A stretch of 64,000 bases of DNA from Ensifer adhaerens (lineage in GTDB: Bacteria > Pseudomonadota > Alphaproteobacteria > Rhizobiales > Rhizobiaceae), in the NCBI RefSeq assembly GCF_013283195.1, contig NZ_JABEKT010000001.1, forward strand, positions 1,276,795 to 1,340,794, written 5' to 3'. The notes beneath the pieces are model-generated. The model searched no databases. It saw only the letters and a list, made by a program, of their open reading frames with translations, and was not told the origin of the DNA. The translations under genes were made by a program, and so were the position numbers. Below, in pieces: positions 53,285 through 58,015 of the stretch (positions are counted from its first letter, which is position 1; each line of letters begins with the position of its first letter).

Positions 53285-53884
53285 TCAGAGGCTGCGGATG
53301 ATACGCCGCAGCGCCTCATCGCGCGCGCCGAGCATCAGCACGTTCTTGAGCGCGACCTTCGGGTCGTCGGTGCGAAACAGGAGCCCGTTGTCGCTGACGC
53401 TGCGATTGATGGTCATCTGACCTTCCTGCGCGTCGGGTTCGATCGCGACGGCGAAGTACATCCTGGAATAGCCGGCCTGGATACGCTCGAAGAAGTGCTT
53501 TTCGTCGCCGAGATCGCAGAAGAAGTTGGCGAAGTAGAAGGACCAGGTCACGTCCTTGGATTGGGCGAGATGTGTTCTCGCGGCCGTCACATGGCAATAA
53601 CCCAGATGCGGCCGGCCGGCGAGCGTGCGGTGGAAGATCATCTTGGGAAACTGGATCGAGGTGTGGAAGCCGTTCATCCGCTTGTGCGTCGTTTCGCCGG
53701 CGGTCGTCAGCTTGTGGCCGGTGCGCTGGGCAACCTCGTCATAGCTGAGATAGCGCCGTTCGCGCTGCGACCATTGCCGCCTTTCGATGCGGCCGGTGCG
53801 CAGGAACTCGGTATGGACCGCTGTCTTCGGAGCGATCGTGGGCAGCTTCTCGGCTGCGGCGTCGTAGTATTTGAGCTTTGCCAT
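53285..53884 (-). CDS. Conserved hypothetical protein (rhizobial, unknown)
   Basis: About 199 residues from ATG 53884 (MAKLKYYDAAAEKLPTIA); the TTG three codons earlier is possible. Blocks FLRTGRIERRQWSQRERRYLSYDEVAQRTGHKLTTAGETTHKRMNG, AGRPHLGYCHVTAARTHLAQ, WSFYFANFFCDLGDEKHFFERIQAGYSRMYFAVAIEPD are clear but I cannot name the family. No signal peptide. A single-gene transcript whose promoter faces the riboswitch region. Confidence 0.7.
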   Translation of the reverse strand: MAKLKYYDAAAEKLPTIAPKTAVHTEFLRTGRIERRQWSQRERRYLSYDEVAQRTGHKLTTAGETTHKRMNGFHTSIQFPKMIFHRTLAGRPHLGYCHVTAARTHLAQSKDVTWSFYFANFFCDLGDEKHFFERIQAGYSRMYFAVAIEPDAQEGQMTINRSVSDNGLLFRTDDPKVALKNVLMLGARDEALRRIIRSL

Positions 53885-54214
53885 GGACTTCAATGCGCTG
53901 TTTGCCGGTTCGGCCGGTTTCTCCGTCAGGCGACGCTAATGCATTATGGTTAATGGAAGATTTCATTGCGCCGGCCAGGATGGATGAGCCGACGCCGCAA
54001 CGGATGTCGCAAAATGGCGAAGGCTTCGCGCTTTCGCGCCGGCTTTGCCGGAAAAAGCGACAACTGCCCAATATTTGATCTATCTCATTGTTTATAATGA
54101 CAAATAGTCGGCCTTGTGGTGTTTCAGACACGGGATGCACTGTGTCGTCTTTCTGGAATTGGATGTCGTTAATCGGCAGCTGCGACGACGGCTTCCGCGA
54201 TTAGATATGCCTAC

Positions 54215-54389
54215 TCAAGGTGCCGCCTCTTAGGGAAGACGGAGAATTGGGAAGCCGGTCAAAACCCGGCGCTGCCCCCGCAACGGTGGTGGAGCGAAAG
54301 CCTCGGCAAAAAGCCACTGGACGGTTCCGTCCGGGAAGGCGCCGGGCTGGTCCTTGCGGATAGCTCCTGAGCCCGGAAACCAGCCTTGA
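54215..54389 (+). promoter_or_regulatory. Cobalamin (B12) riboswitch
   Basis: The P1 stem pairs TCAAGG (54215-54220) with CCTTGA (54384-54389). Inside are GGTGCC, GGGAAGCCGG with the CCCGC-rich GCTGCCCCCGCAAC, and the B12 box AAGCCACTGG with GGGAAGGCGCCGGGC, in the standard order. A GC hairpin (about 54443-54460) and the ribosome site GAGGATA follow. Such riboswitches lower expression when cobalamin is plentiful. It leads directly to the Rieske oxygenase, 120 bp downstream. Confidence 0.92.
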
Positions 54390-54508
54390 CACGAATAGAC
54401 CGTAACGGGTTGCGGCGGGCAGCCGGATCGGAGCCGTCATCGCACAGGCATTGCGCCTGCGTGGGTTCCAGTCCTGCCTCTCCGAAACAAGGCCAACGAG
54501 GATAGGAC

Positions 54509-55753
54509 ATGGACATCAAGGGCGATATGCTCCGCAAGCTGAAGGGTCGACGCGACGGCTACAGCCTCGACCGGGCCTTCTACATCGACCCCGACTACTA
54601 CAGGCAGGATCTCGAGAGCATCTGGTACAAGGACTGGCTGTTCATCGGCCACGACTGCGAGGTCCCGCGCGCCGGCAACTATTTCACCGTTCAGGTCGGC
54701 GACTACCCCGTCGTCATCGTCCGCGACCGGCAGGGCACGATCCGCGCGCTGCACAATTCTTGCCGTCACCGCGGTTCCCGCGTCTGCTCGCAGCACAAGG
54801 GCTCATCGGCCAAGCTCGTCTGTCCCTACCATCAGTGGACCTACGAGCTCGACGGCACGTTGCTCTTTGCCCGTCAGATGGGCGAGGATTTCGACAAGGC
54901 CGCTCACAGCCTGAAGCCGATCCACTGCGAAACGGTCGGCGGCTACATCTTCATCAACCTGTCCGAACAGCCAATGGACTTCGCTCCGTTCCGCGACATG
55001 GTCGCGCCCTATCTGGCGCCGCACCGCCTTGGCGAAACCAAGGTCGCCTTCGAAAGCACCATCATAGAGAAGGGCAACTGGAAGCTCGTCTGGGAAAACA
55101 ACCGCGAGTGCTACCATTGCGCAGCCAACCATCCCGAGCTTTGCCGGACCTATCCGGAAGCCCCGACGGCGACCGGCGTGCAAGGCGCCAAGGATGATCC
55201 TGTCATCGCCGCCCATTGGGAAAAATGCGAAGCGTCCGGGCTTCCGAGCGAGTTCCGCATGTCCGAGACCGGCCAGTTCCGCTCGGCGCGCATGCCGTTG
55301 ATCGACGACGCCGAGAGTTACACCATGTCCGGCGCCCGCGCCGTGCGGCGGCAATTGTCGGCGGATGTCAGTCAGAAGCATATCGGTACGCTGCTTCTGT
55401 TCCATTATCCGTCGACCTGGAACCATGTGCTGGCCGACCATGCGATCACCTTCCGCGTTTTGCCGCTCGGGCCTGAGCTGACGCAGGTTACGACCAAGTG
55501 GCTGGTCAACAAGGATGCGGTCGAGGGCGTCGACTACAATCTGGAAGAACTGACGCACGTCTGGACCGAGACCAACGATCAGGATCGCCAGATCGTCGAG
55601 GAAAACGCTTTCGGTATCCGCTCGCCGGCCTACCAGTCAGGGCCCTATTCGCCCGATCACGAAGGCGGTGTGATGCAGTTCGTCGAATGGTACTGCAAGT
55701 TCATGGAGCAGCGCCTCCAGGGCGAAGCTGCTCCGCTCTTTAGGGTCGCCTGA
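54509..55753 (+). CDS. gbcA: Rieske oxygenase alpha subunit, GbcA-like (quaternary amine demethylase)
   Basis: 414 residues. The Rieske ligands are C85, H87, C105 and H108 (HNSCRHRG and CPYHQW). The mononuclear iron site is ENNRECYHCAANH: H203 and H208, and E200 takes the place of the usual bridging Asp. A bridging Glu is known from carnitine oxygenase CntA and relatives, so the substrate is probably a quaternary amine such as glycine betaine, which would be demethylated with release of formaldehyde. It starts the operon led by the B12 riboswitch; comparative work called such an alphaproteobacterial pair ardX-frdX, as I recall. Substrate is inferred. Confidence 0.82.
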   Translation: MDIKGDMLRKLKGRRDGYSLDRAFYIDPDYYRQDLESIWYKDWLFIGHDCEVPRAGNYFTVQVGDYPVVIVRDRQGTIRALHNSCRHRGSRVCSQHKGSSAKLVCPYHQWTYELDGTLLFARQMGEDFDKAAHSLKPIHCETVGGYIFINLSEQPMDFAPFRDMVAPYLAPHRLGETKVAFESTIIEKGNWKLVWENNRECYHCAANHPELCRTYPEAPTATGVQGAKDDPVIAAHWEKCEASGLPSEFRMSETGQFRSARMPLIDDAESYTMSGARAVRRQLSADVSQKHIGTLLLFHYPSTWNHVLADHAITFRVLPLGPELTQVTTKWLVNKDAVEGVDYNLEELTHVWTETNDQDRQIVEENAFGIRSPAYQSGPYSPDHEGGVMQFVEWYCKFMEQRLQGEAAPLFRVA

Positions 55754-55754
55754 T

Positions 55755-56852
55755 ATGCAGATGGCATCCTCGTTCCATCACTTCGATGAACTCCATGTCT
55801 GGATCGACAGGCAGAACATGCTCGAATGCACATCCGCGGTCATGGAGACCGCGGATGTGATGACCTTTACCTTCCGGCCCGAGAAGCCGGCCTGGTTCCG
55901 TTATCTGCCCGGTCAGTTCGTCACGCTCGAACTGCCGGTGACCGACGACGAGCCGGTGATGCGCACGTACACGCTGTCGTCGACGCCTTCCCGGCCGCTT
56001 TCGATCGCCGTCACCGTCAAGGCGCAGGCCGACAGCATCGGCACGCGCTGGATGTTCGATCACCTGAAGCCGGGCATGCGGCTGAAGGCCTTCGGCCCGC
56101 TCGGCGATTTCAGCTTCGTGCGCCATCCCGGCGAAAAATACCTGTTCATCTCGGCAGGCTCCGGCGTCACGCCGATGATGTCGATGACGCGATGGATGGC
56201 AGACTGCATTCCGGAGACCGACGTCACCTTCATTTCCTGCGCGCGCCGGCCGGATGATATTCTGTTTCGCTCAGAGCTCGAAGTGCTGGCGCGCCAGATG
56301 TCGGGGCTGAACCTCGGCTTTGTGGTCGAGGGGCATGAGGCCCGGCACGGCTGGCACGGCCTGCGCGGCCGCATCGACGGCGCCAAGCTGCCGCTGCTTG
56401 CGCCCGACTTCCTGGAACGCACCGTATTCTGCTGCGGTCCGGAGCCGTTCATGCGCGGCGTGCGCGAGCTGTTGACGGCCGCCGGCTTCGACATGAGCCG
56501 CTATCACGAGGAAAGCTTCCAGCCGGCCGCAGCACCAGCCGCCGAGGAGATCGCAGTCAGGGCAGGGGTGGCAACCGATGCTGACGCGCAGGTCGCCAAG
56601 GTGGTGTTCACCATGAGCGGCAAGGAGATCGAGGCCAAGCCCGGCCAGACCATCCTGCAGGCGGCACGCGCCAATGGCGTCAGGATCGGGGCTGCCTGCG
56701 AAGGCGGCATCTGCGGCACCTGCCGGGTGATGAAAGTCGCCGGCGAGGTCGAGATGAACCACAACGGCGGCATTCTCGACGACGAAATTGACGAAGGCTA
56801 TATCCTTGCCTGCTGCTCGCGCCCGCTCGGGGACGTGCAGATCGAGGCCTGA
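55755..56852 (+). CDS. gbcB: Oxygenase reductase, FAD/NAD plus [2Fe-2S] ferredoxin, GbcB-like
   Basis: 365 residues from ATG 55755, 1 bp after the oxygenase stop. An FNR-type FAD domain (RTYTLSS, about 75-82), NAD domain (LFISAGSGVTPMMSM, CARRPDDILF, VFCCGPEPFM) and a C-terminal [2Fe-2S] ferredoxin (CEGGICGTCRVM and ILACCSRP) appear in order. It passes NADH electrons to the Rieske subunit. Domain order matches GbcB and CntB. Co-transcription from the B12 riboswitch is clear; the operon has only these two genes. Confidence 0.88.
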   Translation: MQMASSFHHFDELHVWIDRQNMLECTSAVMETADVMTFTFRPEKPAWFRYLPGQFVTLELPVTDDEPVMRTYTLSSTPSRPLSIAVTVKAQADSIGTRWMFDHLKPGMRLKAFGPLGDFSFVRHPGEKYLFISAGSGVTPMMSMTRWMADCIPETDVTFISCARRPDDILFRSELEVLARQMSGLNLGFVVEGHEARHGWHGLRGRIDGAKLPLLAPDFLERTVFCCGPEPFMRGVRELLTAAGFDMSRYHEESFQPAAAPAAEEIAVRAGVATDADAQVAKVVFTMSGKEIEAKPGQTILQAARANGVRIGAACEGGICGTCRVMKVAGEVEMNHNGGILDDEIDEGYILACCSRPLGDVQIEA

Positions 56853-56924: not shown

Positions 56925-56951
56925 AAAAGACGCACGGGCCTGTAGGCCCGT
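56925..56951 (-). terminator. Terminator of the GH25 gene
   Basis: A 7-bp stem, ACGGGCC (56934-56940) with GGCCCGT (56945-56951), overlaps the stop codon side of the lysozyme gene and is followed on the minus strand by GCGTCTTTTC. It could also serve the gbcAB operon on the plus strand, where the T-run is lacking. Confidence 0.7.
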
Positions 56952-58015
56952 CAGCGGCTGGCGGCAGCCAGCCGCACCGCGCGATCATGACGGCCGAAAT
57001 CGATCGATCCGGTCGCCATCATGTCGACGCCTTCGCCCGCAGCGCTGGCGGCTTCCGCGCGGCTAATGAGCAGCGGCTGGGTTTCGATTGTGGCCTCTGC
57101 CTGGGCAGAGCTGGATACGCCGGCCCCTTTGTCGGCCTTCGCCAAGAGAACGAGGGGCATCGGTTTTTCCGGCAACAAGACACCGTCCGCCCAGATCGAC
57201 CGCAAGGCGGTGCTGGTCATCGCGGCGACATTGACGTCGATGTCGTCGAGCGTGCCGGGCACACGATAGGGACAGCGGCGCTTGCCGCAATTGACGCCTG
57301 ACGAGAACTGCCACAGCGCGTAGCTGTCCCAGTTGCCCATCGGGAAAACCTGACGGATATCCGGCTTGTAGCGGGCATACCAGAGCGGCAGCCGCGACAG
57401 CAGCCGATACCTGGAGCGGTTGGCTGCGATGTATTTCGCCGTCACATGGTTGGTGTAGAGCATCGGATAGCGGCCGGTGCGGGTCTTGATGTGACCGGCA
57501 AAGATCGCCGCGTCTTCGAGCGACATGTATTTTTTGGGGTCGATGCCTTCGAGATCGAGCACCATCAGCTCGTCGTCGCGGGGCTCCGCATAGTCGAGGA
57601 AATGGTTGGCCTGATCGACCGGGTTGCCGGGGCGGGCGAGATGGTAGGCGCCCCAGAGCAGCCCATGGGAGCGCGCGATCATCCGCCGTGTCTGATATAG
57701 CTCGCGGCTGACCGCGTATTTGCGCCACATCGTCTTGCAGTGGGCAAACGTGTCGCCACCATGATCGCCGGTGCAGGAGAAGCTTTCCGGCAGACCGTCG
57801 GAAGCCTTGGCAATGAAGCCGGAGATGCGCTTGTCGGCAAACATTGCCTCCCAGTCGATGCTGTTCATCTCATAGGCATCGACGATGATGGCGTTTGATT
57901 TCGTCTTCCAGGGTTCCAGCTCACCGGCGCGCGCGTTTGCCGCCGCGAATGCCAGACCCAGAAGGGTCGCGAGGCGCAGAATCATCCGTACAGTGGAGAT
58001 ATACCGCTTTGCCAT
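56951..58015 (-). CDS. GH25-family lysozyme, secreted
   Basis: 354 residues from ATG 58015; ATG 57985 (MILRLATLLGLAFAAANARA) is an alternative that gives a cleaner signal peptide. The GH25 fold is seen from IIVDAYEMNSIDWEAMFADKRISGFIAKASDG, through GAYHLARPGNPVDQANHFLDY and LMVLDLEGIDP with the catalytic Asp-x-Glu, to YALWQFSSG. It cleaves peptidoglycan. The C-terminal 80 residues are low complexity. It is not part of a phage; no phage genes surround it, so envelope remodelling is more likely. Confidence 0.88.
   Translation of the reverse strand: MAKRYISTVRMILRLATLLGLAFAAANARAGELEPWKTKSNAIIVDAYEMNSIDWEAMFADKRISGFIAKASDGLPESFSCTGDHGGDTFAHCKTMWRKYAVSRELYQTRRMIARSHGLLWGAYHLARPGNPVDQANHFLDYAEPRDDELMVLDLEGIDPKKYMSLEDAAIFAGHIKTRTGRYPMLYTNHVTAKYIAANRSRYRLLSRLPLWYARYKPDIRQVFPMGNWDSYALWQFSSGVNCGKRRCPYRVPGTLDDIDVNVAAMTSTALRSIWADGVLLPEKPMPLVLLAKADKGAGVSSSAQAEATIETQPLLISRAEAASAAGEGVDMMATGSIDFGRHDRAVRLAAASR

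Follow-up and report, generated by a model that had tools for sequence, protein, structure and literature searches.

Why should a cobalamin riboswitch stand before a Rieske oxygenase and its reductase, and which vitamin B12-type enzyme would such a pair replace? The question is raised by a 64,000-nucleotide stretch of Ensifer adhaerens DNA (NCBI RefSeq assembly GCF_013283195.1, contig NZ_JABEKT010000001.1, positions 1,276,795 to 1,340,794), hereafter the window, in which a riboswitch leader is followed by an ardX-like and a frdX-like gene. We contend that ArdX-FrdX is probably an O2-dependent, cobalamin-independent betaine N-demethylase that stands in for the corrinoid betaine methyltransferase MtgB, of the MTTB family. 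This reading draws on the sequences, the regulon, co-occurrence, gene contexts and active-site residues, from which we infer the substrate, the response to the ligand, the direction of the switch and the exchange of enzymes. The features concerned are as follows, in window coordinates.

54201..54402, + strand: cobalamin (corrinoid) riboswitch aptamer (Rfam RF00174, 112.7 bits, full model 1-189, E 1.9e-27)
54275..54281, + strand: L5 loop CCCCCGC, located in the sequence; proposed partner of the L13 kissing loop by analogy with corrinoid riboswitches (passages of PMC10653944)
54407..54425, + strand: P13/L13 hairpin of the expression platform, with the conserved GCGGCGGGC at 54412-54420
54471..54508, + strand: hairpin, from a predicted fold, of an anti-Shine-Dalgarno stretch beginning at 54471 and the Shine-Dalgarno sequence GAGGATAGGAC at 54498-54508, just 5' of the start codon
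54509..55753, + strand: ardX-like gene, Rieske non-heme iron oxygenase of the group Vb quaternary-amine type, 414 aa (open reading frame, profiles, alignment)
55755..56852, + strand: frdX-like gene, GbcB-like FAD/NAD(P)/2Fe-2S reductase, 365 aa (open reading frame, profiles)

The open reading frames 54509-55753 and 55755-56852 bear out the 1-bp spacing of oxygenase and reductase that an earlier note on this DNA had given. Because both flanking frames (53285-53893 and 56951-58015) run on the opposite strand, matching the annotated Sinorhizobium meliloti locus, its statement that the operon holds no gene for B12 synthesis or transport stands too. The riboswitch was rightly called complete, as the whole RF00174 model is matched far above its gathering score of 31.5 bits, and this is the sole Rfam match at gathering level across the 64-kb window. 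Position 54215, where the leader had been noted to start, falls slightly within the aptamer, and the leader extends to 54508. The name ardX-frdX was given in that note, and no publication on the pair was found by title or abstract among the matches listed.

The 7.07-Mb genome contains nine cobalamin riboswitches including that of ardX. Two of the nine precede classical B12-independent isozyme genes, metE and nrdI/nrdE, which is what raises the question of the B12-type enzyme that ardX-frdX replaces. Four precede genes for B12 or cobalt, namely a B12-type TonB receptor (best model the B12 receptor; gene cut by the end of its stretch), bluB, cbtA and cobU. Two others lead ABC-transporter genes that are probably corrinoid importers; the corrinoid type is among the best models for the ABC ATPase, and siderophore and F420-0 types are the best models for the ABC substrate-binding protein, in both cases below cut-off. 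The metE and nrdI/nrdE riboswitches lie about 3.4 kb apart with a thioesterase gene between them (G000:C12:785087-788934; L003, L004). The idea of B12 sparing for the benefit of methionine synthase, put forward earlier, is retained here as far as sparing goes, but metE is itself under a cobalamin riboswitch here, and MtgB is a better candidate than methionine synthase for the enzyme spared.

A corrinoid counterpart is present in the same genome. There are three MTTB (PF06253) genes, L015, L016 and L017, the first of which is MtgB-like, with 1068 bits to structure 4yyc, which we take to be an S. meliloti protein, and 411 bits to the glycine betaine methyltransferase 9yce. It adjoins a gene for a corrinoid-binding protein that matches the MtgC model best, at 212.8 of 370 bits, and cobQ lies about 18 kb away. 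The second MTTB gene, L016 (G000:C1:1270840-1272327), is situated about 4.5 kb left of the window edge and is followed by a gene that, by eye, resembles an FMN-dependent oxidoreductase. In Ruegeria pomeroyi, according to passages of a 2025 report, MtgC and MtgD together with MtgB demethylate glycine betaine, and mtgBCDE of S. meliloti is located with its cobalamin genes (PMC12478193).

The ardX riboswitch co-occurs with MTTB. ArdX-like loci were collected from an order survey of 199 genomes (54 of 66 matches taken, with 3 from the own genome and 9 at no more than 37% identity left out), a class survey of 385 (all 16 non-own genomes with a match examined), a phylum survey of 398 (24 of 43 new match genomes examined) and the best 80 loci in named genomes. 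Fifty of these 80 were chosen for the MTTB search, deliberately including all nine without a riboswitch, and 49 were scored; L069, with only 41 bp upstream, was left out of the counts, and plasmid-borne homologues stood outside the MTTB scoring. The state of the riboswitch was taken from cmscan, a motif pattern and an nhmmer profile, with cmscan applied to 13 of the 80 named loci and the pattern and profile to the rest. The profile recovered every positive of cmscan or the pattern, and the sole cmscan negative that it matched was a 24-bit remnant in L089. The tree of ArdX-like proteins was built with FastTree, and placements on long branches are therefore unsure.

Among 144 ArdX-like loci, MTTB was found in the genome for all 65 with an intact riboswitch versus 21 of the 79 others. 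At an identity of at least 46.5% the figures were 65/65 versus 12/42, and at 60% or above they were 55/55 versus 6/19. In 14 independent pairs on the tree that differ in the riboswitch, MTTB differed the same way in 10.5, the opposite way in 0.0 and not at all in 3.5 (median p 0.001, range 0.0002-0.008). The outcome had been predicted before the last MTTB search, which bore it out with MTTB in 8 of 8 riboswitch genomes versus 3 of 16 riboswitch-less ones (Fisher p 0.0002). Three riboswitch genomes with a single MTTB (G234, G240 and G246) have the L015 type at 87-90% identity, with a corrinoid gene adjacent. Among the loci examined, an intact riboswitch is thus kept only where the MTTB counterpart is kept, and the reverse fails.

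The suggestion that genomes without MTTB simply have no B12 is ruled out by their other riboswitches and by the ribonucleotide reductase NrdJ. Of 22 genomes examined in which the riboswitch of ardX is missing or degraded, 21 hold another above the Rfam cut-off and the last has a 29.5-bit match. All 63 genomes searched for NrdJ (TIGR02504) have it above the cut-off of that model; being present throughout, NrdJ cannot explain the riboswitch pattern as a rival trait either. In L089 and L091, compared by eye with L078 (about -190 to -100 from ardX), the outer riboswitch arms are kept and the aptamer core is missing, which points to loss of the riboswitch rather than original absence. Neither genome has an L015-type MtgB, that of L089 holding only a divergent MTTB (34% to L015) and that of L091 none, and these remnants are useful for dating the loss.

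The leader is predicted to act as a translational OFF switch. A P13/L13 hairpin whose loop is complementary to L5 lies behind the aptamer, and the kissing contact is proposed from this complementarity alone, following the mechanism given for corrinoid riboswitches in passages of PMC10653944. Of 70 named relatives that bear the riboswitch, 54 have the exact L13 motif no more than 160 nt from the start (51 no more than 115 nt). P13 covaries: 74 of 76 cells pair (four inner positions, 19 distinct flank pairs), with both sides changing, and this total was matched by 5 of 2000 partner shuffles. The Shine-Dalgarno hairpin of the window leader is weak alone and not beyond chance (z -1.51, 14 of 200 shuffles equally good). 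In predicted folds of the last 65 nt, at least four of the five Shine-Dalgarno bases are paired in 51 of the 70 relatives, a count made without a shuffle control; fewer are paired in 16, and three have no such site. Pairing of this kind fits a translational OFF switch, but since one activating corrinoid riboswitch is described in the same source (PMC10653944), we can only infer the direction of the ardX switch. The 3' part of the leader had, by eye, given the impression of a tRNA end; Rfam finds no tRNA there, and in the predicted fold this part of the leader is the partner of the Shine-Dalgarno sequence. No sigma-70-like site came out of a promoter scan in which 0.9 would be expected.

What the enzyme acts on is suggested by its active site. 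Judged by alignment, ArdX carries the residue set of group Vb, that of Rieske quaternary-amine demethylases, as defined with their roles in passages of PMC7948474 and PMC10952381. The Rieske ligands C85, H87, C105 and H108, the iron site H203, H208 and D359, the bridging E200, the Cys-X-X-Cys pair C201/C204 and N198, which occupies the position of the group Va aromatic residue, are each invariant in 57 of 57 riboswitch-type proteins. Except for Asn198, the group Vb residues are also invariant in 63 other homologues aligned, so the set cannot tell betaines apart. Among solved structures the best matches are 3n0q (536 bits) and, at 524 bits, 3vca and 4qup, both presumably the stachydrine demethylase Stc2. 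ArdX is 56% identical to an Stc2 protein of S. meliloti 1021, and alignment with it confirms Glu200, named as bridging residue in the earlier note. The position of Stc2 Ala223 is Thr222 in ArdX and Thr in 49 of the 57 riboswitch-type proteins, in the Phaeobacter protein and in a 70%-identical Paracoccus homologue (Ile in an Agrobacterium homologue), which counts mildly against proline betaine as substrate. Pfam finds Rieske and Ring_hydroxyl_A domains in ArdX and FAD, NAD and 2Fe-2S domains in FrdX, and the best NCBIfam models, NF058607 (GbcA) and NF058606 (GbcB), stand for the two glycine betaine monooxygenase subunits. The assignment to the quaternary-amine demethylase type is supported by these residues and profiles and by the gene context of riboswitch-free homologues.

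That context was followed at ten loci with annotated plasmid homologues. In Paracoccus versutus (70.0% to ArdX) the pair is followed by fdhA, for formaldehyde dehydrogenase, and a BCCT transporter gene; genes for electron transfer flavoprotein (ETF) subunits, folD and a gene for an FAD-dependent oxidoreductase lie alongside, and the P. ferrooxidans locus is nearly identical. In Agrobacterium strain 1D1609 (61.6%) the neighbours include fdhA and genes for glycine betaine ABC transport, and Salipiger abyssi (55.1%) has ETF, folD and FAD-dependent oxidoreductase genes; the riboswitch is absent at these four loci, which were checked for it. Riboswitch-bearing copies occur on S. meliloti pSymB and in Phaeobacter gallaeciensis, Cereibacter azotoformans and Gemmobacter fulvus; a gene for a glycine betaine binding protein lies about 3 kb from the Phaeobacter copy. 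Taken together, the plasmid contexts make glycine betaine, or a betaine close to it, the favoured substrate. On the C. azotoformans plasmid pORIO2 (L237), typed as conjugative, riboswitch, ardX and frdX adjoin annotated metH, homocysteine S-methyltransferase and cobalt transporter genes.

In the genome surveys, frdX lies beside riboswitch-bearing ardX at 66 of 70 named loci and 27 of 28 loci of G-numbered genomes (G loci), and beside riboswitch-less ardX at 10 of 10 and 37 of 66, respectively. Ten of 20 riboswitch G loci have B12-linked genes (metH, metE, nrdAB, homocysteine methyltransferase, btuB) within flanks of up to 10 kb, and another, L168, has an MTTB gene and a dimethylglycine-dehydrogenase-like gene in its flank; 21 riboswitch-less loci gave one weak TonB match, with dimethylglycine- or GcvT-type genes at six. 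L180 (G150:C89:1-12900) is the plainest example: metE, nrdA, nrdB, ardX and frdX follow on one strand, with a BtuB-like gene further on, so that B12-independent isozymes form a block, and the five-gene arrangement is repeated in L179 of the same genus. Behind frdX in L176 comes fdhA, for glutathione-independent formaldehyde dehydrogenase (714.5 bits, cut-off 637), the enzyme expected were the product formaldehyde. Genes resembling homocysteine S-methyltransferase occur near ardX-frdX in two different families (L175:12219-13277 and L184:12670-13680). At L105, L111 and L154 a second, divergent cobalamin riboswitch adjoins that of ardX, facing a btuB-like gene in L105 and a ribonucleotide reductase gene in L154.

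The mechanism that we propose from these data is as follows. With B12 sufficient, the riboswitch would bind it, the L5-L13 kissing loop and the Shine-Dalgarno hairpin would form, and translation would be blocked, so that betaine methyl groups would pass to the corrinoid protein and on to folate or methionine. As B12 falls, translation of ardX-frdX would start and the oxygenase pair would take over, replacing MtgB and its corrinoid partner protein of the same genome. The O2- and NAD(P)H-dependent reaction would most likely convert glycine betaine to dimethylglycine and formaldehyde, and the methyl group released as formaldehyde could enter the folate pool and feed MetE.

Several observations weigh against this reading. 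The link is incomplete from the MTTB side: the 21 of 79 loci without an intact riboswitch in MTTB genomes (e.g., G188, G353, G288, G938, G910 and G692) include L077, L082, L090 and L092, where an L015-type MtgB is kept at 87-89% identity and L082 seems, by eye, to retain riboswitch remnants. In the order survey riboswitch-ardX occurs in only 13 of 77 MTTB genomes, and three further genomes of the last MTTB search with no ArdX match at 1e-100 also carry MTTB; MTTB therefore does not require ardX. Four loci of one clade have degraded riboswitches of 56-61 bits, above the Rfam cut-off, and no MTTB in their genomes. These (L043, L048, L053 and L058) were picked for cmscan before the MTTB search, as they have no B12 box, and were termed degraded only afterwards; counted as present, they change the tally to 65/69 with a median p of 0.002, and left out they leave it unchanged. 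Six of the ten B12-linked neighbourhoods come from one genus, several query genes were drawn from these very loci, and within 4-kb flanks a B12-linked gene stands at only one of the 70 riboswitch-bearing named loci, for which reasons the neighbourhoods serve as supporting evidence only. The earlier comparison with GbcA and GbcB survives as a likeness, but both proteins fall under the curated equivalog cut-offs (ArdX 511.1 versus 670 bits, FrdX 388.8 versus 500), so that, despite the group Vb residues, glycine betaine is named only as the probable substrate. The protein of the riboswitch-bearing P. gallaeciensis locus shares more identity with Stc2 (66%) than with ArdX (57%), and passages of the MtgBCD report term the cobalamin requirement of that system strongly suggested, not shown (PMC12478193).

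Other explanations have to be set beside these points. The same B12-sparing logic could serve another substrate, such as proline betaine (stachydrine) or the quaternary amine of a different MTTB paralogue. The identity of ArdX and of the Phaeobacter homologue to Stc2 speaks for this, as do the paralogues L016 and L017 in the genome and a superfamily that, according to passages of the discussion of PMC12478193, covers several betaines. We nevertheless hold it to be rather unlikely, given that the three single-MTTB riboswitch genomes carry the L015 type, that the Stc2 alanine is replaced in most riboswitch-type proteins and in the Phaeobacter, Paracoccus and Agrobacterium homologues, and that the two Stc2 loci examined are without a riboswitch. 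It is improbable that the operon merely supplies one-carbon units or methyl groups for MetE in B12 shortage and replaces no B12-type enzyme. The metE, metH or homocysteine methyltransferase genes near several riboswitch-ardX loci, and those adjoining on the Cereibacter plasmid, agree with such a role, but it predicts neither the MTTB link nor the loss of the riboswitch where MTTB is missing, and methyl supply may be a consequence of the exchange with MtgB and not an alternative to it.

Shared ancestry or the overall B12 economy might link riboswitch and MTTB as a by-product, with an unrelated role for ardX. Many sampled genomes are related Rhizobiaceae, and the one-genus neighbourhoods and the 21 loci that keep MTTB without a riboswitch point the same way; the independent-pair tests, the out-of-sample prediction and the B12 use kept in MTTB-less genomes make this account quite improbable. 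A step in corrinoid synthesis or repair, the other possibility raised in the earlier note, has in its favour only that B12 riboswitches often control such genes. It is not supported, as genes for betaine-type transport and formaldehyde dehydrogenase accompany the riboswitch-free homologues and the proteins have group Vb residues, and we regard it as extremely improbable.

The replacement of MtgB by ArdX-FrdX would also distinguish the pair from known systems. The glycine betaine monooxygenase GbcAB of Pseudomonas and Chromohalobacter is likewise a Rieske oxygenase with a reductase, gives the best NCBIfam models and has a similar context at the riboswitch-free homologues; ardX-frdX differs in scoring below the curated cut-offs, in its cobalamin riboswitch and in that riboswitch-bearing copies occur, among the genomes examined, only together with MTTB, unless the four degraded copies are counted. 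Stc2/Stc4, the stachydrine demethylase of S. meliloti, shares 56% identity and the group Vb residues, whereas its two Stc2 loci examined lack the riboswitch and Stc2 Ala223 is mostly Thr in riboswitch-type proteins. The regulatory logic is that of metE and nrdAB/nrdEF under cobalamin riboswitches, with metE and nrdI/nrdE so controlled in the same genome and metE, nrdA and nrdB clustered with ardX-frdX in L180, but the enzyme replaced would be of a third kind, and its substitute, from another family, would depend on O2 and release formaldehyde. MtgBCD (passages of PMC12478193) has the same proposed substrate and product, dimethylglycine, by corrinoid methyl transfer instead of the O2-dependent oxidation proposed for ardX-frdX. 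By title and abstract, no cobalamin riboswitch linked to a betaine demethylase was found among the matches listed from the openly licensed literature, which does not show absence from print; the logic is already known, and its application to this pair was not found among those matches. In the main text of PMC12478193 riboswitches appear only in one cited title, on the glycine riboswitch.

On balance we lean towards the view that Alphaproteobacteria route betaine methyl groups by B12 supply, through MtgB when it is plentiful and through an O2-dependent, formaldehyde-releasing ArdX-FrdX when it is scarce. This reading adds to what was published in 2025 on MtgBCD of marine bacteria (PMC12478193) and connects riboswitches, one-carbon flow and oxygen use. 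If true, it would add a third isozyme pair under cobalamin riboswitches beside MetH/MetE and NrdJ/NrdAB and give a function to the long-orphan ardX-frdX operon. It would also assign a role to a conserved B12-riboswitch operon of soil and plant-associated bacteria including Sinorhizobium and Ensifer, in which the supply of B12 would decide the route by which betaine, an abundant osmolyte, is demethylated.

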